IMG/VR virus record: IMGVR_UViG_3300020401_000004
Span: 1 to 43,564 of that record
Length of the DNA stretch: 43,564 nucleotides
Strand: one strand, 5' to 3'
Source of the DNA: a virus
The translations under genes were made by a program, and so were the position numbers. How positions within the stretch are numbered: position 1 is the first letter of the stretch; each line of letters starts with the position of its first letter. A model generated the notes under the pieces. That model worked only from the letters and a program-made list of their open reading frames with translations. It was not told the origin of the DNA and ran no database searches. Of the stretch, positions 3,745 to 43,564 are shown piece by piece.

Positions 3745-5114
3745 CCGACTCACCTTTGATAGCCAGAACTGGCAGAGTAGAAAACTGGATTAAGAATCCT
3801 GATGGCCGTTTACCTGTATCCTGCACTGTCTTTGTTGTCGAAGATAGTATGGAAGGCCCTAACGGTATAGAAGCATCTTGGAGATTTGTCTCCCATGCTT
3901 TAAGATATGGAGCTGGTGTAGCAGTACACCTCTCAAACATAAGACCCAACGGACATGAAAATGGGAAGGGTCTAGTAGCTAGTGGCCCAGTGTCATTTGC
4001 TAAGGTATATTCTGCACTCAACGAAACCATACGTAGAGGCGGGGTATATAAAAACGGAGCTTGTGTGTGTCACCTTGACTTAGATCACGCTGACGTACTC
4101 GAGTTCATACAAACACCCAGACACCAACTACCTTGGATTAAAAGGTGTGTTGATCTTACAACTGATATGTGGGACAAGACTCCTTACAAAAAAGAATTAC
4201 TCGAAGGTATAAAAGCGGGTGACATTTGGTTAAACAAAATTAAACATGATCGCTATGGAAACAGAATCTACTCCAACGTCTGTCTTGAGGTTTACTTGCC
4301 CTCACGTGGAACTTGCTTGTTACAGCATGTCTCTCTCGGTGCCTGTACTATCAGCGACATATCAAAGGGTTTCAGTGAAGGTATGTCCGACTTGTGTAAT
4401 CTCCATAGCAGGACAGGTATTGGAGAATCTGGAGAATACCTTACCCCAGAAAATGACAGACAAGTGGGGCTCGGTATGCTCGGTCTTGCCAACCTCCTCA
4501 GACGTTACAAAGTTACCTACGAAGAATTTGGAGAAGCCTTAGATCAAGTTATACATGGCAATTCTGCTCACGGAAATGCAGGAAAGATAGCAGAGGAAAT
4601 ACAAACAGGAGTATATAGAGCTGCTGAGATAGCACGTCTTCACCATATGGTACGTGCCTTCGCAATAGCTCCTACGGCTAGCTGCAGTTATAACACAAAA
4701 GACTTGGACGGATACACCTCTTGTCCCGAGATAGCACCACCAATAGCTCGAAGCGTTGACCGTGATAGCGGTACCTTCGGAGTTACATCTTATGATTATG
4801 GCGATGTAGAGATCGCCTCAGAAGTTGGCTGGACTGCATACAAAAAAGTTGCAGACGGTATAATGACACTTCTAGGAAAGACGGGACTTCTTCACGGATA
4901 CAGCTTTAACTCATGGAGTGACGTTGTAACCTACGACAATGCGTTCGTTGAAGAGTGGCTTGGAAGCCCCCAGACATCACTCTATTATTCCTTACAGGTA
5001 ATGGGCGATGTTCAGGACAAGTCGAGTGCATATGCAGCCTTAGATGAATCTGAAGTCGACAGTTACTTGGATGGGATCTTAAACAATGAACCCACATGTG
5101 ATTGCCAAGAATGA
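3741..5114 (+). CDS. nrdA: ribonucleotide reductase, catalytic alpha subunit (compact cyanophage type)
   Basis: This enzyme makes deoxyribonucleotides for phage DNA synthesis. At 457 residues it is far shorter than E. coli NrdA (761) and has no N-terminal ATP-cone. Catalytic residues can be placed: C28 (the C225 role), N179-x-C181-x-E183 in SNVCLE, C192 as the partner cysteine, and a C-terminal thiol pair CDC at 453-455. The 11-residue spacing from C181 to C192 resembles monomeric class II enzymes. The tandem tyrosines Y415-Y416 (SLYYS) are those class I enzymes use to receive a radical from a beta subunit, and a beta gene follows directly. I therefore call it class I of class II-like build. 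Both ends are translationally coupled (ATGA). Confidence 0.93.
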   Translation: MTDSPLIARTGRVENWIKNPDGRLPVSCTVFVVEDSMEGPNGIEASWRFVSHALRYGAGVAVHLSNIRPNGHENGKGLVASGPVSFAKVYSALNETIRRGGVYKNGACVCHLDLDHADVLEFIQTPRHQLPWIKRCVDLTTDMWDKTPYKKELLEGIKAGDIWLNKIKHDRYGNRIYSNVCLEVYLPSRGTCLLQHVSLGACTISDISKGFSEGMSDLCNLHSRTGIGESGEYLTPENDRQVGLGMLGLANLLRRYKVTYEEFGEALDQVIHGNSAHGNAGKIAEEIQTGVYRAAEIARLHHMVRAFAIAPTASCSYNTKDLDGYTSCPEIAPPIARSVDRDSGTFGVTSYDYGDVEIASEVGWTAYKKVADGIMTLLGKTGLLHGYSFNSWSDVVTYDNAFVEEWLGSPQTSLYYSLQVMGDVQDKSSAYAALDESEVDSYLDGILNNEPTCDCQE

Positions 5115-8821: not shown

Positions 8822-8982
8822 TGCCATACTCTAGCTATTCACCAAAGCAGAAAAAGTTAGCTGCGTTAGCTGGTAACAAAAAGAAAATAGATCGGGCTGA
8901 CCTGATCGCATTACGGACTAAGAAAGGTGGCAAAAAGAAAGGGCGTAAGCCTGTCTCTCGGAAGAGGGGAAAAATCTCGTAA
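8821..8982 (+). CDS. 53-residue basic hypothetical protein
   Basis: It starts in a TAATG overlap (MPYSSYSPKQKKLAAL...) and ends with a Lys/Arg-rich tail (KKGGKKKGRKPVSRKRG). The end overlaps the next gene by 56 bases in another frame. The tail could bind DNA or RNA. Short basic proteins beginning this way are familiar to me from marine phages near the capsid gene, but I cannot name a function. Confidence 0.62.
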   Translation: MPYSSYSPKQKKLAALAGNKKKIDRADLIALRTKKGGKKKGRKPVSRKRGKIS

Positions 8983-9175
8983 AGGCGGCCTAACAGCTAA
9001 AGGTAGAGCCAAGTACAATCGTGCTACAGGCTCTAACCTAAAGGCCCCACAGCCAGGGGGAGGTGCTAGGAAGCGTTCTTTCTGTGCTAGAATGAAGGGT
9101 GTAAAAGGCCCTATGAAAAAACCAAACGGTAAGCCAACCCGTAAGGCGTTGGCACTCAGGAGATGGAAGTGCTAA
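8927..9175 (+). CDS. 82-residue basic protein, probably DUF6321-like
   Basis: The segment GRAKYNRATGSNLKAP followed by RKRSFCARM, and the RRWKC end, match a conserved small protein of cyanophages that I recall as DUF6321. The start is a GTG giving MAKRKGVSLSLGRG. No in-frame ATG precedes the conserved part, and GTG 8927 yields the N-terminus I expect for the family. It overlaps the previous gene by 56 bases and ends in TAATG. The many Arg/Lys residues suggest a nucleic-acid or capsid-interior role; none is established. Confidence 0.8.
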   Translation: MAKRKGVSLSLGRGEKSRKGGLTAKGRAKYNRATGSNLKAPQPGGGARKRSFCARMKGVKGPMKKPNGKPTRKALALRRWKC

Positions 9176-9240
9176 TGGCCTATAAAAAGAAAAAGAAAAA
9201 AGGAAACAGCAAATGCGGCTGCAAACACGGAGGTAAATAA
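9175..9240 (+). CDS. 21-residue Lys-rich micro-protein with a Cys pair
   Basis: It reads MAYKKKKKKGNSKCGCKHGG plus K, set between two TAATG overlaps. The CGC and a nearby His could bind a metal, but the peptide is too short to be sure. Perfect stop/start coupling on both sides is the main support. Confidence 0.6.
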   Translation: MAYKKKKKKGNSKCGCKHGGK

Positions 9241-9407
9241 TGGGTAAACTATGTGCTAGAGGTAAGGCCGCAGCTAAACGTAAGTTTAAGGTCTACCCAT
9301 CTGCATACGCTAACGGCTATGCCGTACAGGTATGTAAAGGTAAAATTAAAGGTAGTGACGGTAAACGTAGAACTGCCAAAGGTTACTCTAAAAAGAAAAA
9401 AAGGTAA
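9240..9407 (+). CDS. 55-residue conserved cyanophage basic protein
   Basis: The motif CARGKAAAKRKFKVYPSAYA followed by QVCKG is one I recognise from small proteins encoded by many cyanophages. The tail is a run of Lys/Arg. It has TAATG overlaps at both ends. Function is unknown; conservation of two cysteines and a YPS-AYANGY core suggests a small fold rather than a disordered tail. Confidence 0.75.
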   Translation: MGKLCARGKAAAKRKFKVYPSAYANGYAVQVCKGKIKGSDGKRRTAKGYSKKKKR

Positions 9408-9559
9408 TGGCTAAATTAACACCCAGACAGGAAGCCACTCTAAAAAAACATCAGAAACATCACACTGCTAAACACATGGCTATGATGAAAAAGATGATGA
9501 GAGACGGGTCTACTTTTACAGCTGCACATAAGGCAGCTATGAAGAAAGTAGGAAAATGA
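9407..9559 (+). CDS. 50-residue His/Met/Lys-rich hypothetical protein
   Basis: It begins MAKLTPRQEATLKKHQKHH and continues with Met/Lys repeats, probably one or two amphipathic helices. It starts in TAATG with the previous gene and ends in an ATGA overlap with the next. The helical TPRQE start resembles small cyanophage proteins of this cluster. No function can be given. Confidence 0.68.
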   Translation: MAKLTPRQEATLKKHQKHHTAKHMAMMKKMMRDGSTFTAAHKAAMKKVGK

Positions 9560-9792
9560 GTCTTAAAAGATGGTTTAAGGAGAAGTGGGTAGACGTTAAG
9601 ACTGGTAAGCCATGTGGAAGACAGAAAGGCGAAACCCGTAAAGGCTACCCTGCCTGTAGACCATCAAGGCGAGTCTCGTCTAAAACCCCTAAGACCTCCT
9701 CGGAGATGTCTAGTAAAGAACGTACTAGATTTCGTAAATCCAAAACAAGTTCAAAACGAATTAACTACAACCACAAACGAAGAAAGAGATGA
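9556..9792 (+). CDS. 78-residue basic protein, probably DUF5872-like
   Basis: The WFKEKWVDVKTGKPCGR start, the KGYPACRPSRR segment and the SSKTPKTSSEMSS segment are those of a small conserved protein found in phages and bacteria, which I recall as DUF5872. Two cysteines (CGR, ACRP) are retained. It is coupled by ATGA at both ends, and its stop lies inside the hli start. Function is unknown. Confidence 0.78.
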   Translation: MSLKRWFKEKWVDVKTGKPCGRQKGETRKGYPACRPSRRVSSKTPKTSSEMSSKERTRFRKSKTSSKRINYNHKRRKR

Positions 9793-9923: not shown

Positions 9924-9998
9924 GCCACGTCCGTTCATCCCTAACGGGACGCATGCAACCTAATCATGGAACGGGGGTTAGGGTATATGGAGATTACA

Positions 9999-32738: not shown

Positions 32739-33308
32739 ATGACAACTCCTGCAGAGGTACTCATTGACCAAACCGTTGAATTTTTAAAACAAGTAGAAGG
32801 TTTTGAACCTGTTGCTAGAACACCTAAAGGTATAAAAGGTGGTAAATCAACATATGGATATGGATTTGAGTTTAAGAATGATAATAAAACTAGAGTAACA
32901 GACGGGGAGACAATAACAAAAGAAGAGGCAGAACCTATGTTAAGATACAAAGTTACTGAGCTTCACAATACATTTTCTGAAAGATATGAAAACTATAGAA
33001 ATCTACCTTTAAACGTAAAGTTAGGGGTATTATCTTTTGGTTTTAATGCTGGTATAAATGTATTTGAAGACCCAAGTAATCAAACTTACTTACGTCCTGC
33101 ATTGGATAGTGGTGATCCTACTAAACTAAAAGATGCTATAGGTCGTTTTGTTTATGGCCCAACACCCGAACAGGGAGCTATACTTAAATTACGTCGTATG
33201 AAAGAACGTGCTATTATGGATAATGAGGCTTACTTTGATGAGTTTTTATATAACCCATTTGATGACGGACGTAACCCTAGAGATGCTTCAAGGACAGTAG
33301 GCCCATGA
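32739..33308 (+). CDS. endolysin, phage lysozyme (GH24-like)
   Basis: It has 189 residues. The start FLKQVEGFEPVA, with catalytic Glu20, then STYGYGFEF, ITKEEAEPMLRYKV and LSFGFNAGINVF follow the order of T4-type lysozymes (E...D/Y-GYG...T). It cuts peptidoglycan once the holin lets it out; no signal peptide is seen. It sits between small and large terminase, unlike the T7 amidase, which is an early gene. It overlaps large terminase by ATGA. The short upstream gap (32715-32738) may hold a promoter. Confidence 0.85.
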   Translation: MTTPAEVLIDQTVEFLKQVEGFEPVARTPKGIKGGKSTYGYGFEFKNDNKTRVTDGETITKEEAEPMLRYKVTELHNTFSERYENYRNLPLNVKLGVLSFGFNAGINVFEDPSNQTYLRPALDSGDPTKLKDAIGRFVYGPTPEQGAILKLRRMKERAIMDNEAYFDEFLYNPFDDGRNPRDASRTVGP

Positions 33309-35035
33309 TTGACATTGAATCTCAGTTAAAAGATGACTTTAGGTTCTTTTTGACTGCTATATGGACACACTTAAACCTACCAGCTCCTACAAGAGCACAA
33401 CTATGTATTGCTGAATATTTACAACATGGCCCTAAAAGACTCCAAATACAAGCGTTTAGGGGTGTGGGTAAGTCTTGGATTACTGCTGCATTTGTTCTTT
33501 GGACTTTATTCATTGACCCTGATAGAAAAGTTATGGTCGTCTCTGCTTCTAAGGATAGAGCAGACTCATTCTCAATCTTCTGTCAAAGATTAATCCTAGA
33601 GGTGCCTTGGTTGGCACACCTAAAACCCAAAAACGACGACCAAAGATGGTCACGTATATCGTTTGATGTGGGGCCAGCAGCCCCTCACCAAGCACCTAGC
33701 GTTAAGTCTGTAGGTATTACTGGTCAGTTGACTGGTAGCCGTGCAGACCTAATGGTACTAGATGATGTAGAAGTACCTAATAACTCCATGACGGAGCTCC
33801 AACGGGGCAAACTGTTACAGCTAGTTACAGAATGTGAATCTATACTTACACCTAAGAAAGACTCACGTATTATGTTTCTAGGCACACCACAGACTACCTT
33901 TACTATCTACAACAAACTAAGAGAAAGAAGCTATAGACCGTTTGTGTGGCCCGCAAGGTACCCACGTAAGGTTGCAATGTATGATGGCTTGTTAGCACCC
34001 CAGCTAGCAGATGACCTAGATACAGATGACTTGGCGTGGAAACCTACAGACACCAGATTTAAGGAAGCGGATTTACTAGAACGTGAGTCTTCTATGGGTA
34101 GGTCAAACTTTATGCTGCAGTTTATGTTAGACACTACACTGTCAGACAGAGAAAAGTTCCCACTTAAATTTGCAGACCTAATAGTTAATCCTATTAACCC
34201 TACACATGGCCCCGAAAACATTATTTGGTGCTCAGACCCTGATAACATTCTTAAAGATCTGCCTTGCGTTGGTCTTCCTGGGGATTATTATTACAAACCT
34301 ATGCAAGTACAAGGGGAGTGGACTGAGTATTCCGAAACCATCTGCAGCGTCGATCCCAGCGGACGAGGTGCTGATGAGACAACCGCATGTTTTCTTAGCC
34401 AACTTAACGGTATAATATACCTACATGAAGTGTTTGCAACCAAAGACGGATATAGTGATAAGACTTTACTAACAATACTTAAGAAATGTAAGAAATATGG
34501 CGTGTCTACGCTGCTCATCGAGAGCAACTTTGGCGATGGTATTGTATCAGAGCTATTTAGAAAACATTGTCAAACGACAAAGACAAACATTAACATAGAG
34601 GAGACTAGAGCTAATGTCCGTAAAGAAGACCGTATTATTGACGCTCTCGAGCCTGTCTTTAATCAGCATAGGCTTGTGGTTGATCCAGCCGTCATTGAAT
34701 GGGATTATGCTTCAAATGCTGATGAGGCGTCTGAAAATAGACACCAATATATGTTGGCTTACCAAATTAGCAGGATGTGCAGAGAAAAAGGTGCCGTTAG
34801 ACATGATGATAGAATTGACTCCCTTGCCCAAGGAGTTAAATGGTTTACAGATGCCCTTGCCCTCTCAGCTGAAGTAGAGATACAAGACAGAAAAGACAAC
34901 GAGTGGTTAGACCATTTAGAGGCTTGGATGGATGACCCTCAGAGCGAGGCTAACCATCTTGTGATGGGGATGAGTTTAGACCAAAAAAGAGAAGCCCGTG
35001 GAATCTCCAAACACCAGTTGGAGAGCTGGATGTAG
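33305..35035 (+). CDS. terL: terminase large subunit, T7 gp19-like
   Basis: It has 576 residues (T7 gp19 has 586). Walker A AFRGVGKSW is at 50-58 and Walker B LMVLDDVE at about 147-154. The RNase H-like nuclease residues are in SVDPSGRGADETT near 349, IESNFGDG and RHDDRIDSLAQG near 500. It pumps DNA through the portal and cuts concatemers. A 24-base sequence that recurs in the RNA polymerase gene begins right at the stop codon. Confidence 0.95.
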   Translation: MIDIESQLKDDFRFFLTAIWTHLNLPAPTRAQLCIAEYLQHGPKRLQIQAFRGVGKSWITAAFVLWTLFIDPDRKVMVVSASKDRADSFSIFCQRLILEVPWLAHLKPKNDDQRWSRISFDVGPAAPHQAPSVKSVGITGQLTGSRADLMVLDDVEVPNNSMTELQRGKLLQLVTECESILTPKKDSRIMFLGTPQTTFTIYNKLRERSYRPFVWPARYPRKVAMYDGLLAPQLADDLDTDDLAWKPTDTRFKEADLLERESSMGRSNFMLQFMLDTTLSDREKFPLKFADLIVNPINPTHGPENIIWCSDPDNILKDLPCVGLPGDYYYKPMQVQGEWTEYSETICSVDPSGRGADETTACFLSQLNGIIYLHEVFATKDGYSDKTLLTILKKCKKYGVSTLLIESNFGDGIVSELFRKHCQTTKTNINIEETRANVRKEDRIIDALEPVFNQHRLVVDPAVIEWDYASNADEASENRHQYMLAYQISRMCREKGAVRHDDRIDSLAQGVKWFTDALALSAEVEIQDRKDNEWLDHLEAWMDDPQSEANHLVMGMSLDQKREARGISKHQLESWM

Positions 35036-35058
35036 AGCAACGTTACCATAATACACGG
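35035..35058. repeat. 24-base repeat, copy 1 (terL end)
   Basis: From the last base of the terL stop, GAGCAACGTTACCATAATAC plus four bases are identical to 40794-40817 inside the RNA polymerase gene. Copy 1 runs into CACGGGGAAG, copy 2 into CACGGAGAAA. It may be a phage promoter or a duplicated fragment. Confidence 0.9.
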
Positions 35059-35077
35059 GGAAGTGGTGCTCCCCGTG
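35054..35077 (+). terminator. hairpin after large terminase
   Basis: CACGGGGA (35054-35061) pairs perfectly with TCCCCGTG (35070-35077) around an eight-base loop, starting 19 bases after terL. No T-run follows, so the role may be termination by the phage polymerase, RNA processing, or stabilising the transcript end. GGGGC/GCCCC and CTCCAG/CTGGAG stems follow within 60 bases. Confidence 0.5.
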
Positions 35078-35360
35078 GGTGGAAACAGCGGTCAAGGGGG
35101 GGCATTAGCCCCTCCAGTCCCCCGATTGCTGGAGCCAACATCTACACCACCCTCTAAGGTACCTAGTGCAGTACGTGGGTGTCTTACAGGGGTGTCTAGA
35201 TTTTGGTAAAAATTTTTATTCGGTATTCTACGTACGCACCCTTGCTGTGCCCCCCGATACCACCCTGCGTGACATTTGCTACATACGGTAAACCGTACTT
35301 GCCAGACTGCAGTTTTTTTGGTACCTCTCGGGGGTAGTACATATGTACCACTATCGTCAT

Positions 35361-35381
35361 TGAGTATAAATACCTATTGAC
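35361..35381. repeat. 21-base repeat with TATAAATAC core, copy 1
   Basis: TGAGTATAAATACCTATTGA plus C is identical to 35434-35454, 73 bases away. The core AGTATAAATAC contains GTAT/ATAC halves and recurs at 35547-35557. Candidates are promoters or protein-binding sites. Confidence 0.85.
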
Positions 35382-35433
35382 GCCACCCCCGAAATGTGGT
35401 ATGAGGGCCGCACCTGGGGACGCTCGGGGATAA

Positions 35434-35454
35434 TGAGTATAAATACCTATTGAC
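35434..35454. repeat. 21-base repeat with TATAAATAC core, copy 2
   Basis: This is the exact second copy of the element at 35361-35381, in the same orientation. The flanks differ, so the repeated unit is sharply limited, as expected for a selected site rather than a recent duplication. Confidence 0.85.
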
Positions 35455-35546
35455 TATTCTAGTTAGTGTGTGCATCGGCATCTGTTACGCTATATCTTGA
35501 TTTATTAACAAATTGTAGACATATCTGGGGGGTGCTCTATATTAAT

Positions 35547-35557
35547 AGTATAAATAC
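35547..35557. repeat. third TATAAATAC core
   Basis: AGTATAAATAC repeats the 11-base core of the two 21-base elements, followed by TTACTATTAAA instead of CTATTGAC. It stands in a very AT-rich stretch. Confidence 0.55.
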
Positions 35558-35684
35558 TTACTATTAAATATGCTTATGAATTGAAGCCACGAAAACACTA
35601 TATATGGGGTAATACCTTTACAGCTGGAACATATAAGTTTTACTAATGTTATTGCATTTAGTATTAGGGAAACTTATGTATAAT

Positions 35685-35751
35685 TTGTAACAGTACAAAT
35701 GTACTAGCTAGTAAAAGTTTACAAATTGTAACAATAGTACAGATGTATTAG
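35685..35751. repeat. imperfect direct repeats with TTGTAACA
   Basis: TTGTAACAGTACAAATGTAC (35685-35704) recurs as TTGTAACA-ATA-GTACAGATGTA (35726-35747), with a three-base insertion. The element TGTAAC also appears at 35833 and 35924. GTAC pairs within each copy make small palindromes. They could be operator or polymerase sites. Confidence 0.5.
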
Positions 35752-35935
35752 TACAATTTATACGGTGTTTATCTTAGTTAAGAGCCACTATCACCGACGT
35801 TGCCGAGCTCTAAAGTTAAATTATTTCAAAATGTAACGAACACTTGAAAACGATTTTATCTCGGTTATATTAGGTACATATCCAAAAGGAGGCCAACAAC
35901 AACAAAAGTCAATTATTACTAAATGTAACAACAGA

Positions 35936-35964
35936 TTGACAGTAAACAAGATACCATATAATAT
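35936..35964 (+). promoter_or_regulatory. sigma-70-like early promoter
   Basis: TTGACA (35936-35941), a 17-base spacer and TAATAT (35959-35964) make a near-consensus host promoter; TATAAT at 35957 with spacer 15 overlaps it. It points toward the early genes and fits transcription by the host enzyme right after DNA entry. Confidence 0.7.
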
Positions 35965-36031
35965 AAAGGTATCAAACAAATAAGCCCAATAAAAAAGTTA
36001 TCCGAAACCTTGCGGGGGGCCCGATGACGGA

Positions 36032-36169
36032 GTGACGGGGAACATCTACGGATGGTACATAGCTAACACTGATACGCATAGCGAGGTGTTACGGGTGGGC
36101 TGGATAGACCGAAAACCAGAAAGTACGGCTAATTTTATTACTTACCATAGTCTGTTGCTAGCCAACTAG
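36032..36169 (+). CDS. possible 45-residue hypothetical protein
   Basis: This GTG-started ORF (MTGNIYGWYIANTDTHSEVL...) lies downstream of the early promoter at 35936. Its composition is protein-like and its G+C resembles the early genes that follow. There is no ATG, and the ribosome site is weak (GACGGA). It could equally be chance in a structured RNA leader. Confidence 0.35.
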   Translation: MTGNIYGWYIANTDTHSEVLRVGWIDRKPESTANFITYHSLLLAN

Positions 36170-36208
36170 CCAAATGTCAGCATTTGATAAAATACCTTGA
36201 CAGACTAT
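36147..36208. repeat. 8-base inverted repeat overlapping an early promoter
   Basis: ATAGTCTG (36147-36154) and CAGACTAT (36201-36208) are perfect inverse copies; inside lie AAATG/CATTT and two CTAGCC direct repeats. The right arm covers the last bases of the -35 box at 36197. It may form a transcript hairpin or bind a regulator. Confidence 0.45.
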
Positions 36209-36225
36209 TTCATGCGGTCTATAGT
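36197..36225 (+). promoter_or_regulatory. sigma-70-like early promoter
   Basis: TTGACA (36197-36202), exactly 17 bases, then TATAGT (36220-36225). This is close to consensus and immediately precedes the first clear early gene. With the promoter at 35936 it would drive the early block by host RNA polymerase. Confidence 0.7.
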
Positions 36226-36279
36226 TAGTTCAGGCGGGTGCAATTCCTACCAACCGCTCAAATCCACCATCATCAAATC

Positions 36280-36903
36280 GTGTCTTATTCTCAACTATCA
36301 CACAATGCACGTGAGATTGTTGCTAAGTTCACACTAGCCACCAGCCAAGAAGTTCAGCTCGGCTGTGACTGGTATCCCTCAGCACTCAAAATCTCCGCCC
36401 GCATTGGCGAAAAGTATGGGCTCTCGGCTCAGGTTGTTGCTGGCGTCATCGCTGCCCTATCACCTAACAACCGTTGGGAGCGTAACATCATCGACGCAGA
36501 GAACGTCATCAAGGCGTGGCGGCATGGCGACGACGACGACGTGCTCGCAGTCAAAGTGTGTACGTACAAACCAATGCTAGCCAAGGCCCTGCAGATTCTC
36601 AACTCAGCATCCTGCTACATCGTTGACATTCTCAACGGCCCCAAAATCACCGAGTTTTACAACTGCATCACCAACCCTGCCATGACTGACGTGTGCATCG
36701 ACGGCCACGCCTACAGTGTGTGGTTCGGCCAACGTCTCACCATGAAAGAGGTGCCACCCATCGGCAAGAAGCTACGGGCTACCATCAAGCAAGATTATCG
36801 TGACGCCACTGCGTTCATTAACGAGGAGCTATGCGAGCACTTCTACCCTGCGGACATCCAAGCTATCACATGGGTTACACACAAACGTATCTACAATGTA
36901 TAG
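36280..36903 (+). CDS. conserved phage protein, DUF7178-like (possible DNA-repair-type fold)
   Basis: This has 207 residues from GTG 36280 (MSYSQLSHNAREIVAKF). A more upstream GTG at 36238 adds 14 residues but lies only about 12 bases after the -10 box. The central GVIAALSPNNRWERNIIDAE is characteristic of a phage protein family (DUF7178 from memory) whose helical pattern recalls helix-hairpin-helix glycosylases; CIDGHAYSVWFG further on fits that. No activity is known to me. It is the first gene of the early block. Confidence 0.75.
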   Translation: MSYSQLSHNAREIVAKFTLATSQEVQLGCDWYPSALKISARIGEKYGLSAQVVAGVIAALSPNNRWERNIIDAENVIKAWRHGDDDDVLAVKVCTYKPMLAKALQILNSASCYIVDILNGPKITEFYNCITNPAMTDVCIDGHAYSVWFGQRLTMKEVPPIGKKLRATIKQDYRDATAFINEELCEHFYPADIQAITWVTHKRIYNV

Positions 36904-37096
36904 ACAACTAACCTTCGAGCCTGTAATATGTGGGGCAGTCATGTCCTACAAAGGCATCCTATCTGACCCTGCCATTGTCCTCACTCTCACATCCTTACAT
37001 GAGAAAAACTATGACCTCTGCGAATCAGCCCACACCGACAGGTGGTTCTTCGACCCCGAGCAAGGACTCTCACAAACGGAGACGCCCTACGCTTAA
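36896..37096 (+). CDS. small hypothetical early protein
   Basis: This 66-residue protein (MYRQLTFEPVICGAVMSYKG...) overlaps the preceding stop by eight bases. There is no recognised domain. The reading frame is shared with 85 overlapping bases of the next short ORF, so one of the two ends may be misread, but the N-terminal 35 residues here have no competitor. Confidence 0.55.
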   Translation: MYRQLTFEPVICGAVMSYKGILSDPAIVLTLTSLHEKNYDLCESAHTDRWFFDPEQGLSQTETPYA

Positions 37097-37193
37097 AGAG
37101 ACACAAGCCAGCCAACAGATACCGCCCGAGGTATGGAGGGCCATCCAATACCTAGAATATCGCAAACTACGCCACAAACACCCACACGTATGA
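37011..37193 (+). CDS. possible small basic protein
   Basis: It has 60 residues from ATG 37011 (an in-frame ATG at 36999 adds four). The N-terminus is Ser/Thr/Pro-rich, then RRRPTLKETQ and a convincing helix IPPEVWRAIQYLEYRKLRH. It ends in ATGA with the methylase-like gene, which supports translation. The 5' half overlaps the preceding ORF. Confidence 0.5.
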   Translation: MTSANQPTPTGGSSTPSKDSHKRRRPTLKETQASQQIPPEVWRAIQYLEYRKLRHKHPHV

Positions 37194-37777
37194 AAGTACT
37201 AATCGCCTGCGAGTTCAGCGGGGTAGTACGTGAAGCCTTCACCAAGCGAGGCCATGACGCTACCAGCTGTGACTACCTAGCTTCCGAGCAGCCATTCGGC
37301 AAGCACTATCAAGGTGATATGTTCCAGATTGCTTATGGTCACTGGGATCTTATCATCGCACACCCACCCTGCACAGATCTGGCAGTCTCAGGCTCTAAAT
37401 ACTGGGCCGAGAAAGTCAAGGACGGACGGCAAGGCCGAGCCATCGAGTTCGTCGAACGTATCTGGCAGCTACCCTGCCCCAGGATTTGTATTGAGAACCC
37501 TGTTGGTGCCTTGTCTACACGCAGTAAACTAGGCAAACCAGCCCAATACATCCACCCCTACCAGTTCGGCCACCCCGAGGCCAAGAAGACTGGCCTGTGG
37601 CTCAAGAATCTACCACCACTCATACCTACCAATGAGCTGGAGCTACCCGAGCGTGGCTACTGGGACAACCAAACACCCAGCGGTCAGAACAAACTCGGCC
37701 CATCCGAAGATCGTTGGAAGCTACGTGCTGCAACGTATCAGGGCATAGCCGACGCAATGGCTAGCCAATGGGGTTGA
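37190..37777 (+). CDS. DNA cytosine methyltransferase-like protein
   Basis: It has 195 residues from ATG 37190 (MKVLIACEFSGVVREAF). The AdoMet-binding-like N-terminus is followed by a motif IV-like PPCTDLAVSG near residue 61 and a motif VI-like IENPVG near 102, the order of C5-cytosine methylases. It is too short to hold a full target-recognition domain. It might methylate phage DNA against host restriction, alter nucleotides, or be catalytically changed. The early position fits defence avoidance. I infer activity only from motifs. Confidence 0.65.
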   Translation: MKVLIACEFSGVVREAFTKRGHDATSCDYLASEQPFGKHYQGDMFQIAYGHWDLIIAHPPCTDLAVSGSKYWAEKVKDGRQGRAIEFVERIWQLPCPRICIENPVGALSTRSKLGKPAQYIHPYQFGHPEAKKTGLWLKNLPPLIPTNELELPERGYWDNQTPSGQNKLGPSEDRWKLRAATYQGIADAMASQWG

Positions 37778-38133
37778 CGTTCTCCCAGATAGCTGCTATG
37801 CTATCTCTGAGGGCCTCACCCTCTGCTGTTTACCACACAACTATCATGCAACCAAAGAAACGCACTTCAACATGTGTCAAGTCCATCGACGTTGACCCTA
37901 TCACTGGATCAGCTACAGTTACATACTTGACTGGCTCTTCATACGAGTACACCAATGTATCACGCAGAGCTATTGCTAACCTACTCACACAACCACAGAT
38001 GAGCCTTGGCTTCTGGGTCAACAAGAACTGCAAAGCTCAGGGCGTACACGTCAAGCAGATCGCAGACGCTTACTACCACAGACGTCCAAAGGTCAGAGTA
38101 TCACTACCAGCGGAGCTAGCAGCAAATGTCTAA
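37768..38133 (+). CDS. KTSC-like domain protein
   Basis: This 121-residue protein overlaps the methylase-like gene by ten bases. The core, CVKSIDVDPITGSATVTYLT then SSYEYTNVSRRAI and GFWVNKNCK, follows the small KTSC domain pattern (short beta sheet with a Y-x-Y and a final K-N-K). The function of this domain is unknown, with a proposed nucleic-acid link. ATG 37846 (MQPKKRTSTCVKSI) would start just before the domain and is an alternative. Confidence 0.65.
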   Translation: MGLTFSQIAAMLSLRASPSAVYHTTIMQPKKRTSTCVKSIDVDPITGSATVTYLTGSSYEYTNVSRRAIANLLTQPQMSLGFWVNKNCKAQGVHVKQIADAYYHRRPKVRVSLPAELAANV

Positions 38134-38326
38134 CGTGAAACTAATCTTCGATCAATCCACAGCTCCCAGCCTACTATCTATGGGGCAGAGCTACGAGCCA
38201 TCAACCAATGGCACCATAGCTGTTACCGTTGAGGACGCAGACAGCGGCCTCCTCGAGGACATACTATCCAATGCGGGTCTATCTATGCTCGCTGATGAGG
38301 TAATTTACACAGACTTCATGCAATGA
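38126..38326 (+). CDS. small acidic hypothetical protein
   Basis: It is a 66-residue acidic protein (MSNVKLIFDQSTAPSLLSMG...) overlapping the previous gene by eight bases and the next by four (ATGA). Acidic early phage proteins often bind host enzymes as inhibitors or DNA mimics, but nothing here shows that. Confidence 0.6.
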   Translation: MSNVKLIFDQSTAPSLLSMGQSYEPSTNGTIAVTVEDADSGLLEDILSNAGLSMLADEVIYTDFMQ

Positions 38327-38661
38327 AACAGTGCAGGCAATGCGGAGAGCTCAAGCCACTTGACTCCTTCCCACTATTCTCAACTGCTGGGGCTGGACGT
38401 AAGAATACGTGCAAGTCCTGTCAAAACCATCACGTCAGAGTTCGTAACCGCCTACGCAGGATGCACAAGCCACCATCGTCGGGTGCTTGTCCTGCATGTG
38501 GGAGGCATACAACACGCTGGGTGCTCGACCATTGCCACCGCACAGATCAATTCAGGGGTTACATCTGCGACCCATGCAACACAGCATTTGGCAAGCTTGA
38601 CGATGACCCCAGGATTATGTTAAAATCTTTACAATGGCTACAATCACATGACCAATCCTAA
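38323..38661 (+). CDS. recombination endonuclease VII-like protein
   Basis: This is a 112-residue protein with an N-terminal zinc ribbon (CRQCGELKPLDSFP ... CKSC), then CPACGR, and the signature DHCHRTDQFRGYICDPCN then AFGKLDDDP of the T4 endonuclease VII family (HNH-type, resolves branched DNA). In this phage it is an early gene distinct from the T7-type endonuclease I at 42902. It could also be a homing-type nuclease or act on host DNA. Confidence 0.88.
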   Translation: MKQCRQCGELKPLDSFPLFSTAGAGRKNTCKSCQNHHVRVRNRLRRMHKPPSSGACPACGRHTTRWVLDHCHRTDQFRGYICDPCNTAFGKLDDDPRIMLKSLQWLQSHDQS

Positions 38662-38914
38662 CAATTCCATCCAAATGTGGACACTCACACGTCTATGTCC
38701 ATACCACTACGAACGCACAGTTCTTGGCGTATTCATTGATGCTGAGGCTGCACTGTACAGACTCAAAAGGCTTACAGATATGGCTGCTGATGGCGAAGAG
38801 TTCACGCTCGAGTGCCATGACGTCAAAACTATCACCGAGGAGCGTGTTGCCTTCGAGGAGTACGAGTCATCAAAAAAGTCCGATGGTTCAAAGGTAGTAG
38901 AGATAGGTGCCTAA
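38648..38914 (+). CDS. 88-residue hypothetical protein
   Basis: This is an acidic helical protein (MTNPNNSIQMWTLTRLCPYH...) with DAEAALYRLKRLTDMA and an EERVAFEEYE stretch. It overlaps the nuclease gene by 14 bases. I do not recognise it; small proteins of this shape are common in cyanophage early regions. Confidence 0.62.
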   Translation: MTNPNNSIQMWTLTRLCPYHYERTVLGVFIDAEAALYRLKRLTDMAADGEEFTLECHDVKTITEERVAFEEYESSKKSDGSKVVEIGA

Positions 38915-38915
38915 G

Positions 38916-39077
38916 ATGACTACACAAGAGTTTATCGACGAGGTATTTACTGTAGCCAAACAAGGCTCAGGGCAAAACCAGCTATCTACCTCAGAGGTTG
39001 TTGACGAGCTACGCATACTCAAAGACAAGGCTTTGAAGTGGGACATTTTACACAGATCATTTGTTGAAACATTATGA
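38916..39077 (+). CDS. 53-residue hypothetical protein
   Basis: It starts one base after the previous stop (MTTQEFIDEVFTVAKQ...) and is helical, with TSEVVDELRILKDKALKW. It ends in an ATGA overlap with the next gene. No family is recognised. Confidence 0.55.
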   Translation: MTTQEFIDEVFTVAKQGSGQNQLSTSEVVDELRILKDKALKWDILHRSFVETL

Positions 39078-39202
39078 GCACTTTACACCACGAAACCATC
39101 ATGGAGCAAATCTATGAGGAAGTACAAGAAGATCACCCCGAGCTTGACCAAGATGCTTGGGAGGCAATCGCCAAGATTAGATTCGAGGCTAGGTGCCTAT
39201 GA
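39074..39202 (+). CDS. 42-residue acidic hypothetical protein
   Basis: A single-domain helical micro-protein (MSTLHHETIMEQIYEEVQED...) with ATGA overlaps at both ends. About one residue in four is Glu or Asp. Function is unknown; coupling is the main support. Confidence 0.55.
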   Translation: MSTLHHETIMEQIYEEVQEDHPELDQDAWEAIAKIRFEARCL

Positions 39203-39411
39203 GAAAACCTGAGAAACATGAGTGGATCTACGGTGTGTTTGGTGTTCTTGTCACATGGTCATTCCTTGGTTTCTTTCTACTACTATCTCTTATACTACCC
39301 GAAACTCGACCACCAAAATACCAACATTTACGGATTATCTCATCATGGCAGGACGAATATTCAACAACCGCATCAAAGAACTTAACAAATGGAAGGCCAC
39401 TAACAAGTTGA
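39199..39411 (+). CDS. small membrane protein
   Basis: It has 70 residues: MRKPEKHEWIYG then one membrane segment of about 22 residues (VFGVLVTWSFLGFFLLLSLI) and a polar tail. Arg/Lys before the segment predicts the N-terminus inside. It may change the host membrane early in infection. The last 67 bases overlap the next gene in another frame, so the tail may be less constrained. ATG 39199 is preferred to an upstream GTG at 39193. Confidence 0.6.
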   Translation: MRKPEKHEWIYGVFGVLVTWSFLGFFLLLSLILPETRPPKYQHLRIISSWQDEYSTTASKNLTNGRPLTS

Positions 39412-39638
39412 CACAAGTGACCTTCGACATGGGTTATGAGGCAGCTCTCACATGGGAGCTACCCCCATCCTATGTATGTGTAGTCAGAGCCATGTTACCC
39501 AACGGAAAGATCAATGAAAGGTCATATCGAAATGGTATAGCTGCCAAAAGATACATGACCAAGTTACTTGAAGATGGTAATGACTACATGGTAATGACCA
39601 GCAACGAAATCCTAGACACACTTGACTTTATCCCATGA
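39345..39638 (+). CDS. 97-residue hypothetical protein
   Basis: It runs from ATG 39345 (MAGRIFNNRIKELNKWKA...). The frame is open further back to 39222, but that part would overlap the membrane protein fully and is unlikely. It has a mixed alpha/beta pattern with YVCVVRAMLPNGKINERSY. It ends in ATGA with the next gene. No family is recognised. Confidence 0.62.
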   Translation: MAGRIFNNRIKELNKWKATNKLTQVTFDMGYEAALTWELPPSYVCVVRAMLPNGKINERSYRNGIAAKRYMTKLLEDGNDYMVMTSNEILDTLDFIP

Positions 39639-39910
39639 ACCCACATGACTTAGCCAATGTCCTTGACAAAAAGGGCTATTGGATAGATGATGATACTGGG
39701 GAGGTATCTATGTCGATTGATACCACACTCGAAGAAGAGAAACCCACCGACCTTTTAGTATTACTCGCAGCTACAGGACAGCTGGAGCTAAGGTATGACA
39801 GCCTTAACGACCCCAGGTTTTTTCTAAACAACTGGAAATGCTACGAAAGCATGGAGGAATACTGCAAGGTGCATCCACATGAACCCCAATGTAAAACCTA
39901 TGATACGTAA
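39635..39910 (+). CDS. 91-residue acidic hypothetical protein
   Basis: This acidic protein (MNPHDLANVLDKKGYWIDDD...) has two cysteines near its end (YCKVHPHEPQC). ATGA coupling leads in. It overlaps the next short ORF by 32 bases. No known domain is seen. Confidence 0.6.
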   Translation: MNPHDLANVLDKKGYWIDDDTGEVSMSIDTTLEEEKPTDLLVLLAATGQLELRYDSLNDPRFFLNNWKCYESMEEYCKVHPHEPQCKTYDT

Positions 39911-40139
39911 ACTAACTCAACGGCAAATTGACCGCCTTGATGACTACGAATACTCACTATTTCTCGCCTATGGAGACTCATTCAAACCTACACCGACAGT
40001 TTCTACTGGAGCAGGAAGCTATAGCTCAAGGGAAGCAGAGGCTTCACGACTCATTAAAGCAGCTAGAATCGAAGTCATACGCAAGTGCAAGCGTTTACGG
40101 AGTGTCCTCAATAAGAGAGGCATTACCCTACCTAGTTGA
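39879..40139 (+). CDS. possible 86-residue protein overlapping the RNA polymerase start
   Basis: The first part (from ATG 39900, MIRKLTQRQIDRLDDYEY) looks coding and fills the gap before the polymerase. The remaining 170-200 bases are shared, in another frame, with the polymerase N-terminus. The basic end KAARIEVIRKCKRLRSVLNK may be real or a by-product of that frame. It could regulate polymerase translation by coupling. Confidence 0.4.
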   Translation: MNPNVKPMIRKLTQRQIDRLDDYEYSLFLAYGDSFKPTPTVSTGAGSYSSREAEASRLIKAARIEVIRKCKRLRSVLNKRGITLPS

Positions 40140-42318
40140 GCACATACAGACACAGTTCTGGAAACTTCAGAATGGTCAAGCTGGTAAATATTACCAACCA
40201 ATCAAGCAGTACCTTGACGAGCTGGAGCCACTAGCCATTGCTACCATACTGTTGAAAGTTACCTTTGACAAAGTGTTCAGTACACGCACTAACCAAAATA
40301 CATTGGTTCCCGTGCTGGCTGCCATTGGCTCTGCATTGGAGGCAGAAGCTAAGTTTAGATGGTACAAACAAGAGCATCCTAACCTTATGTCCTACATCGA
40401 GAAGACATACTATCACAGCTCATGTGGTACGCAGCAACGTGAAGCAATCGCTAGCCAAAAGTTTGGTTCTCATGGAATTAAATGGGATTCCTGGGGGACA
40501 AAGACTAGGCTGACACTAGGAAGATGGGGATTAGATGCAGTCATCCAGACTACTCAATGGTTCACTGTTGACAAACATAACCACAGAAAAAGGTATTTTT
40601 ACAAGGTAGTTCCTACCGAGTTGTTTGACACCAAACGCCATGAACTAATCAAATCTGCTGAGTTATTTAGCGGTATTCCTTGGCCTATGTTAGTGACTCC
40701 TGATGACTGGGGGTATGATGAAAATGGTGAGATTATTTATGGAGGTTATCTAACCAACCGAATGATGAAAGGCCATGAAATGACTAGGGTTAGGAGCAAC
40801 GTTACCATAATACACGGAGAAACGCCTTTAAACTTTTTAAATAAGTTACAAAAGGTGCAGTATCGTGTTAATCGTCACGTGCTAGATGTGGCTGAGGAGC
40901 TAGTTGAAAGAGGGTATGTAGTGGGTAAATTTATACCCATATCTCCTTCATTCAAACCACCTAGACCACCAGCTGCAGATGATGATGAGCAAGTAAACAA
41001 GTCTTGGCGAAGACAAGTTGCCGAAGCTCATAATGCTGACCGTATAAATTTTAAAAGATCGGTTAGAACTAGGACACAGATGGAGGCGGCTAGAAAGTTC
41101 AAAGACGAGGACTTCTATCTTTGTTGGTCTTTTGATTACAGAGGTAGAGCATATCCCATTCCAGCCTTCCTCACCCCACAAGATACAGACTTTGGTAAGT
41201 CATTGTTAAGATTTGCTAATGAGTGTAGTGTAAATACTGAGTCTGAGTTGTGGTTGTCTTTTCAAGTAGCTACCAGCTACGGGTTGGACAAGGCCACGTT
41301 GGATGACCGACACGAATGGGTCAAACAAAACAAAGACTTAATTTCAAGGGTTGCAACCAACCCCATCGAGAACCTAAGCGAATGGGAAGAGGTTGAGGAA
41401 CCTTGGCAGTTTATGGCTGCCTGCCATGAGTATTATCATTGCTGTATCAAAGGTGATAAACACACCACAGGTCTTATGGTCGCTGTTGATGCAACATGCT
41501 CTGGTCTGCAAATTTTAGCAGGACTGGCCCGAGACAAGTCTACCGCTGAATTAGTCAATGTCTGTCCCAGCCAGAAACCAAGCGACGCCTACCTTGCAGT
41601 TGCCGACGAAGCCAAAAGGTTCCTACCGTCATACATGCACCGATGGATGACACGTAAGACCACTAAACGAACCGTTATGACTATACCCTACAACGCTACT
41701 AAAGACAGCAGTAGGAAGTACATAAGGGAATCATTACAAGAGCAAGGGTTTGAAGTGGACAAAGATGAGTTAACAACCATCGTAAATGCAGTCTATCAAA
41801 GCATGGACAGCATAGTTCCTGGGCCCATGAAGGTAATGAGATGGATTAAAAAACATGTAGGCCAGTACATCAGAGATGGTGCTACTGCAGTAGAATGGAC
41901 TACTCCCTCTGGATTCCATGTATATCAAAAAAGAGATGACATTGAAACAGAGAGGATGAGATTACAGTTACTAGGGAGTGTCTCTATTAGGATACCCAAC
42001 GGTAACTCAAAGCCCAGCCCTACCAAACACAAATCAAGTACGGCTCCAAACTACATCCATTCATTTGACGCTTCGCTCTTACACAGATCTTTTACTGAGT
42101 TCAATGAGCCATTCACAGTTATTCACGACTCCGTTCTTTGTAGAGCAGGAGACATGGGAACACTCAATTCGCTTGTGCGAGAAACCTACACCAATATATT
42201 CACAGAAGAATGTTGGCTTACACGTTTTGCACAGGACATCAATGCCACTGAACCACCACCAATCGTAGGTACATTAGACCCTACAGTTGTTTCAAATTCC
42301 ACCTATTTTTTCTGCTAA
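39940..42318 (+). CDS. single-subunit phage RNA polymerase, T7 gp1-like
   Basis: It is 792 residues from ATG 39940 (T7 has 883); ATG 39970 and TTG 39928 are alternatives and none has a clear ribosome site. It holds the catalytic set: DYRGRAY near 399, metal-binding D517 in AVDATCSG, K576 and Y584 in TKRTVMTIPYN, and D730 in VIHDSVL. The K-Y spacing of eight equals that of T7 (631, 639). It transcribes the later phage genes from its own promoters. Codons 286-293 contain copy 2 of the 24-base repeat. The end gives TAATG with the SSB gene. Confidence 0.95.
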   Translation: MTTNTHYFSPMETHSNLHRQFLLEQEAIAQGKQRLHDSLKQLESKSYASASVYGVSSIREALPYLVEHIQTQFWKLQNGQAGKYYQPIKQYLDELEPLAIATILLKVTFDKVFSTRTNQNTLVPVLAAIGSALEAEAKFRWYKQEHPNLMSYIEKTYYHSSCGTQQREAIASQKFGSHGIKWDSWGTKTRLTLGRWGLDAVIQTTQWFTVDKHNHRKRYFYKVVPTELFDTKRHELIKSAELFSGIPWPMLVTPDDWGYDENGEIIYGGYLTNRMMKGHEMTRVRSNVTIIHGETPLNFLNKLQKVQYRVNRHVLDVAEELVERGYVVGKFIPISPSFKPPRPPAADDDEQVNKSWRRQVAEAHNADRINFKRSVRTRTQMEAARKFKDEDFYLCWSFDYRGRAYPIPAFLTPQDTDFGKSLLRFANECSVNTESELWLSFQVATSYGLDKATLDDRHEWVKQNKDLISRVATNPIENLSEWEEVEEPWQFMAACHEYYHCCIKGDKHTTGLMVAVDATCSGLQILAGLARDKSTAELVNVCPSQKPSDAYLAVADEAKRFLPSYMHRWMTRKTTKRTVMTIPYNATKDSSRKYIRESLQEQGFEVDKDELTTIVNAVYQSMDSIVPGPMKVMRWIKKHVGQYIRDGATAVEWTTPSGFHVYQKRDDIETERMRLQLLGSVSIRIPNGNSKPSPTKHKSSTAPNYIHSFDASLLHRSFTEFNEPFTVIHDSVLCRAGDMGTLNSLVRETYTNIFTEECWLTRFAQDINATEPPPIVGTLDPTVVSNSTYFFC
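40794..40817. repeat. 24-base repeat, copy 2 (inside RNA polymerase gene)
   Basis: Identical to 35035-35058. In frame it encodes part of VRSNVTIIHG. Followed by AGAAACG where copy 1 has GGAAGTG. The chance of a 24-base identity in a genome this size is on the order of 1 in 100,000 or less. Confidence 0.9.
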
Positions 42319-43246: not shown

Positions 43247-43564
43247 ATCAACCTTCTTACATCACGCCCCTTGTTCTCAGTGTGGCTCGTCAGATGGCAG
43301 TTCCGTATATTCTGATGGACATACTTATTGTTTTGTATGTAACCACTTTAATAGTGGGGAGTTATCTTCCACCATCGTCAAACCAAAATGGTCTAAAGCC
43401 ATGCTAAAGGGCGATCCAATAAAATTACGCAAAAGAGGTTTAACAGAGGAAACCTGTCGTAAATATCGTATTCACAAAGACGGTGATACGCTACGTATGC
43501 ACTATTTTGACAAAAACGGTCAAGTATGTGCAGCAAAAGTCAGAACAAAAGAGAAAGATTTCTG
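43218..43564 (+). CDS. DNA primase/helicase, N-terminal part (continues at 2)
   Basis: From ATG 43218, residues 1-106 up to the junction form the T7 gp4 zinc-binding primase domain: HHAPCSQCGSSDGSS then SDGHTYCFVC gives the four zinc cysteines. LTEETCRKYRI and QVCAAKVRTKEKDF then run directly into base 28 of the contig in the same frame. The ATG at 43243 is in another frame and was discarded. Without the overlap bases the whole gene is 1605 bases including the stop. Confidence 0.93.
   Translation, partial: MQSQSTGLNESTFLHHAPCSQCGSSDGSSVYSDGHTYCFVCNHFNSGELSSTIVKPKWSKAMLKGDPIKLRKRGLTEETCRKYRIHKDGDTLRMHYFDKNGQVCAAKVRTKEKDF
43538..43564. repeat. 27-base terminal overlap (right copy)
   Basis: Exact copy of bases 1-27, lying within the primase/helicase gene. 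See the left copy. Confidence 0.95.

Follow-up and report, generated by a model that had tools for sequence, protein, structure and literature searches.

The window analysed here, a stretch of 43,564 nucleotides, is a cyanopodovirus genome whose closest named relatives are Tangaroavirus phages. It carries the same 24-nucleotide sequence twice, once inside the gene for its own single-subunit RNA polymerase (RNAP) and once after terL, and comparative sequence analysis indicates that this repeat is almost certainly the promoter of that polymerase, present in two copies per genome. We infer promoter activity in this phage, and likewise where exactly transcription starts and what the right-end transcript does. 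A two-promoter layout with one promoter in the RNAP gene has been known since phage Syn5, and the window phage is a further member of this group. What is new here is the generality of the layout, a code relating promoter bases to polymerase residues, and promoter predictions for many polymerases not yet characterised, among them those of P-SSP7, S-CBP42 and P60. We found no published statement of this generality in a search of openly readable papers, and claim no priority.

Identity and placement of the repeat

Bases 35035–35058 and 40794–40817, both on the plus strand, are identical at 24 of 24 positions in the same orientation, and extending the repeat gives a match of 27 in 28 (CACGGGGAA and CACGGAGAA). 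The right-end copy starts on the last base of the TAG stop codon of terL, the terminase large subunit gene (33305–35035, plus strand; Pfam Terminase-T7_RNaseH-like, 72% nucleotide identity to P-SSP10 terL). The other copy occupies codons ~290–297 of the open reading frame at 39928–42318 (plus strand, start codon uncertain), whose product contains the catalytic domain of single-subunit, T7-like RNAPs (PF00940, E = 2e-68) and is 62% identical to the Tangaroavirus RNAP. The sequence of this copy is also coding, which is a point against the promoter reading.

An exact, same-orientation repeat at these two places had been reported in a preliminary description of this DNA, and both its identity and its placement are borne out. 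A scan allowing mismatches, proposed in the same description, returned exactly two sites on the two strands of the window and no third, with the next best sequence differing at 8 of 24 positions. In 100 dinucleotide-Markov genomes of the window's length, the longest direct repeat measured 14–20 nt, with 20 reached once, so a repeat of 24 nt is unlikely to arise by chance. The decisive argument that the repeat is real comes from relatives, which carry a pair at both of these places although its sequence is a different one.

Correspondence with the Syn5 promoters

The promoters of the Syn5 RNAP were reportedly described by Zhu, Tabor, Richardson and colleagues in 2013 (JBC). This enzyme has only two known promoters, of the 15-bp sequence ATTGGGCACCCGTAA, one of which lies in the RNAP gene, and uses them in vitro; the first transcribed base is the one that follows ATTGGGCACCCGTAA, and one promoter has been argued to serve >37 kb in long transcripts (PMC3950665). 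In the Syn5 genome (NC_009531), we found the 15-mer exactly twice, at 4929 (RNAP codon 270) and at 44797 (6 nt past the terL stop), and in the protein alignment the Syn5 RNAP-gene promoter coincides with the RNAP copy of the window. The window has the same arrangement: a near-exact pair in the same orientation, only two per genome, with one copy in the RNAP gene at homologous codons and the other directly past terL, near the putative right genome end. In both phages, the start base, which in the window is a predicted one, directly precedes a conserved H/Q codon, and a hairpin with the same loop, AGTGGTGC, follows the right-end copy. The promoter sequences differ, however, ending in ACGTTACCATAAT before ACACGG in the window and in TTGGGCACCCGTAA before GCAAGG in Syn5, and the two RNAPs are only 37% identical, with promoter function tested in Syn5 only. 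Phage records searched with the doubled Syn5 15-mer gave chance matches only.

From this homology, we assign predicted promoters spanning ~−18 to +6 to 35035–35058, the counterpart of the Syn5 site at 44797 and found after terL in relatives, and to 40794–40817, whose codons align with those that hold the proven Syn5 promoter. Transcription is predicted to start at an A in each case, at 35053 and 40812 on the plus strand (uncertain by 1–2 bases), just before CACGG and not at the G run, which the preliminary description had likened to the end of the T7 promoter. The proposal made there of a self-recognised promoter in the polymerase gene and another at the genome end is supported by the Syn5 homology and by the residue–base covariation described below. 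The layout, at first held to be unusual, had a precedent in Syn5 and seems to be general among cyanopodoviruses.

Matched pairs in related phages

We compared 48 RNAP–terL pairs drawn from the window, isolates and IMG/VR contigs. Each of the 48 had a pair of its own at these two sites, in a few cases a weak one or one less closely positioned, and the copy after terL is present in relatives. Automatic search found the repeat in 46 of the 48, the weakest being L020, which is poorly paired and may be a mixed contig, and the near-identical L169/L170; in L162 and L188 the second copy is less exact, with 4 of 18 positions mismatched, and lies ~71 nt beyond the called stop of terL. Core sequences vary among phages and agree within one, with 529 identities observed against at most 372 in 5000 shuffles (0 of 5000 reaching the observed value), and in 33 of the 37 distinct cases no other tail matched the RNAP core better than the phage's own. 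Each of 11 complete genomes had two sites with ≤3 mismatches and no more.

The terL-end and RNAP copies of P-SSP10, NATL2A-133 and P-SCSP-R27W share AAAGTGTACACTAACACACGGGGAA, 25 nt in length, and those of 9515-10a share 21 nt; the conserved pairs of P-SSP7, P60 and S-CBP42 are AACCCCTACGTATACAGGGG, AATTGGTGACAGTAAGCAGGG and CATCTGGCCCATGTAAGCAGGGAGA, respectively. The base predicted as +1 is a purine in all lineages, immediately 5′ of the conserved H/Q codon, and the bounds of the within-genome match are nearly constant, running from ~−17 to +9 with no further extension. The pelagiphage HTVC019P, taken as an outgroup, had no pair >11 nt, and the layout is thus shown for cyanopodoviruses only. 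Among these, the two-promoter layout appears to be common, with each phage carrying its own version of the promoter matched to its own enzyme. What was a curiosity of Syn5 would then become a general rule of two copies of a private promoter per phage, one embedded in the polymerase gene.

Covariation of promoter bases with polymerase contact residues

The three promoter-contact elements of T7 RNAP are reviewed in PMC4496689. We calculated mutual information, APC-corrected and sequence-weighted, between the 18 bases upstream of +1 and 758 RNAP alignment columns, leaving out the residues encoded by the promoter site itself. For the contact elements we used residues 93–101, 232–242 and 739–770, which we take to be their extent in the T7 structure. 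Eight of the top 15 columns fell in these elements (hypergeometric p = 5.6e-7), a value that is indicative because the effective number of RNAP sequences was ~13 and phylogeny is incompletely removed, the better control being 15 decoy stretches of the RNAP gene, which gave 0–3 top columns each. When only the non-coding right-end copies were used, contact elements supplied 6 of the top 15 columns (p = 1.2e-4).

The contact-element columns among the top 15 are the homologues of T7 residues 240, 748, 756, 233, 739, 96, 759 and 754; high-scoring columns were also found outside the elements, at T7 206, 777 and 790. The homologues of 240 and 233, in the intercalating hairpin, covary with −5, that of 96, in the AT-rich loop, with −15, that of 748 with −10 and that of 756 with −8. 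At the 748 homologue, E accompanies C at −10, K accompanies G and Q accompanies A; where the 756 homologue is S or K, the base at −8 is A, and Q is found with T, R with C and E with G, with some exceptions. A natural variant, L015/L016, combines C>G at −12 with Q680R (T7 750) in the specificity loop, and L088, a contig with near-identical terL, has the same C>G at −12 in its right-end copy, together giving a snapshot of promoter–polymerase co-evolution. Because promoter bases covary with residues of the RNAP contact elements, we take the repeat to be read by the window polymerase, with sequence-specific recognition by the specificity loop, the AT-rich loop and the intercalating hairpin indicated indirectly. 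Such a natural base–residue recognition code would make promoter specificity predictable and testable.

These observations also bear on other readings of the pair. The sites could be bound by another protein, as a terminase or pac site, a replication initiator site or a homing-endonuclease target, and one copy does lie at the packaging end beside terL, with HNH genes nearby in relatives. The covariation, however, is with the polymerase's own contact elements, and the Syn5 homologue is a proven promoter, making this account very improbable; the right-end site may nonetheless have a second role besides that of a promoter. We give still less credence to a fragment of the RNAP gene recombined to the genome end as a relic, or to copies kept alike by gene conversion. 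Either would fit a pair of which one member is coding and the other is not, both matching within each genome, but the bounds of the match are nearly the same in all lineages and of the size of a phage promoter, and the pair persists across deeply diverged phages while its sequence changes. Those changes track promoter-contact residues far off in the protein, and the Syn5 pair consists of working promoters. It is just as improbable that transcription of the right-end copy yields an RNA decoy, antisense RNA or guide acting on RNAP mRNA: a conserved structured RNA lies directly downstream and its 5′ end shares ~9 nt with that mRNA, but with the start set by Syn5 homology the greater part of the shared sequence (−18 to −1) precedes the start and is absent from the right-end RNA, the two copies are in the same sense and so allow no antisense pairing, and an RNA guide gives no reason to expect covariation with the residues by which the polymerase contacts DNA. 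Recombination and a decoy of the polymerase mRNA had both been raised in the preliminary description; neither gained support, and the contact-residue covariation and the Syn5 promoters speak against them.

Comparison with T7 and with published predictions

Taking the repeat as a predicted promoter, the window resembles T7 in having a single-subunit RNAP, T/A-rich bases at −4 to −1 and a promoter near the right end, and the residues homologous to T7 N748 and R756 are among those that covary with promoter bases. The 756 contact falls at −8 here, with the Syn5-based start, whereas it is at −9 in T7. T7 has many promoters, and we know of none inside its gene 1. Fifteen promoters are needed to transcribe T7 (PMC3950665). 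The window departs from a T7-type genome, with many copies ahead of middle and late genes, in having two copies only. A relaxed-mismatch scan of the window and 11 complete genomes revealed no extra copies ahead of late genes; further sites had been expected there, but all 11 of the complete genomes scanned had only two.

Promoters of the P-SSP7 and S-CBP42 RNAPs have been predicted with a tool (PMC11475235, Table 1), and these predictions disagree with the conserved pairs that we found for the same polymerases, AACCCCTACGTATACAGGGG and CATCTGGCCCATGTAAGCAGGGAGA. In that study, 16 of 16 tested RNAPs with a DNA-binding domain <30% identical to that of T7 were inactive, wrong promoters being suspected, and its text does not name the P-SSP7 and S-CBP42 RNAPs as active (PMC11475235). 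The conserved pairs suggest that cognate promoters can be read straight from genomes where prediction tools fail, a bottleneck named in the same paper.

A predicted structured RNA at the right end

The right-end promoter may mainly make a short structured RNA, comprising a 5′ hairpin (invariant loop AGUGGUGC or AAGGGUGGA), a linker and a second hairpin. We tentatively propose, at rather less than even odds, that marine cyanopodoviruses thereby produce a new non-coding RNA, with a role in packaging, in RNA stability or in replication of the genome end. The predicted transcript, begun at +1 or +2, folds into hairpin I (35054–35077, plus strand), with a stem of 35054–35061 and 35070–35077 and the invariant loop AGTGGTGC at 35062–35069, as seen from the fold and from 87 class I loci. 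An alignment of relatives reveals a conserved linker, GGTGGAAACAGCGGTCAA, at 35078–35095 (plus strand), followed by a second, G+C-rich hairpin at 35096–35115 (plus strand), which is terminator-like, with a U-run, in about half of the relatives and not in the window.

The class I loop, AGUGGUGC, occurs in 87 loci, including the window, Syn5, P60, S-CBP42 and Tangaroavirus, and the other loop class, which contains GGGUGGA, in 22 loci (P-SSP7, S-CBP4 and others). Because MAFFT misaligned the hairpin arms, we counted stem pairs starting at the loop and moving outward. In class I hairpin I stems, 86/87 pairs were canonical, with 12 distinct arm pairs and paired changes; shuffling the 3′ arms still left 90% pairing on average, compared with 99% for the arms as they are, which makes base-pair covariation by itself modest evidence for hairpin I. 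A second stem of at least 7 pairs was present in 66 of 69 distinct tails against 24 in control coding segments, and a T-rich stretch followed it in 31 tails against 1 in the controls. Homologous post-terL tails (compare 35053–35115) occur in L009, L010, L018–L112 and others, with the loop AGTGGTGC or AAGGGTGGA.

Neither the terL-end region nor the right-end hairpin RNA matched Rfam above gathering score, the terL-end region had no tRNA, and the openly readable literature yielded no published work on the right-end RNA. The comparison across phages draws attention to this conserved, predicted RNA at the end of the genome. The long non-coding stretch past terL also holds a 21-nt exact direct repeat, TGAGTATAAATACCTATTGAC, at 35361–35381 and 35434–35454, 73 nt apart.

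Proposed transcription programme and genome context

Most probably, host RNAP first transcribes the phage RNAP gene from an early promoter upstream, and the phage RNAP would then bring its own gene and the later ones under the control of its own promoter. From the RNAP-internal promoter, with its start near 40812, transcription would run rightward across what remains of the RNAP gene and then over all genes downstream, those for replication, virion and packaging, as far as terL. In T7, phiOR serves the genome end; the right-end promoter, with its start near 35053, would similarly serve the right end of the linear genome, and its transcript, with a stable hairpin at its start, may assist genome-end replication or packaging. 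Relatives have thyX or talC past terL (PMC4646655), and in these the right-end promoter may express the genes so placed.

The window has 27-nt identical ends, at 1–27 and 43538–43564, and the contig is probably a complete genome assembled circularly. A sigma-70-like site lies at 36197–36225, as a consensus match only. Genes for small, very basic proteins (DUF6321, DUF5872) are clustered at 8927–9789, between a scaffold-like gene and the capsid gene, and a Glutamine-II riboswitch (RF01704, 52.5 bits) is found between them and the capsid gene, at 9929–9983 on the plus strand.
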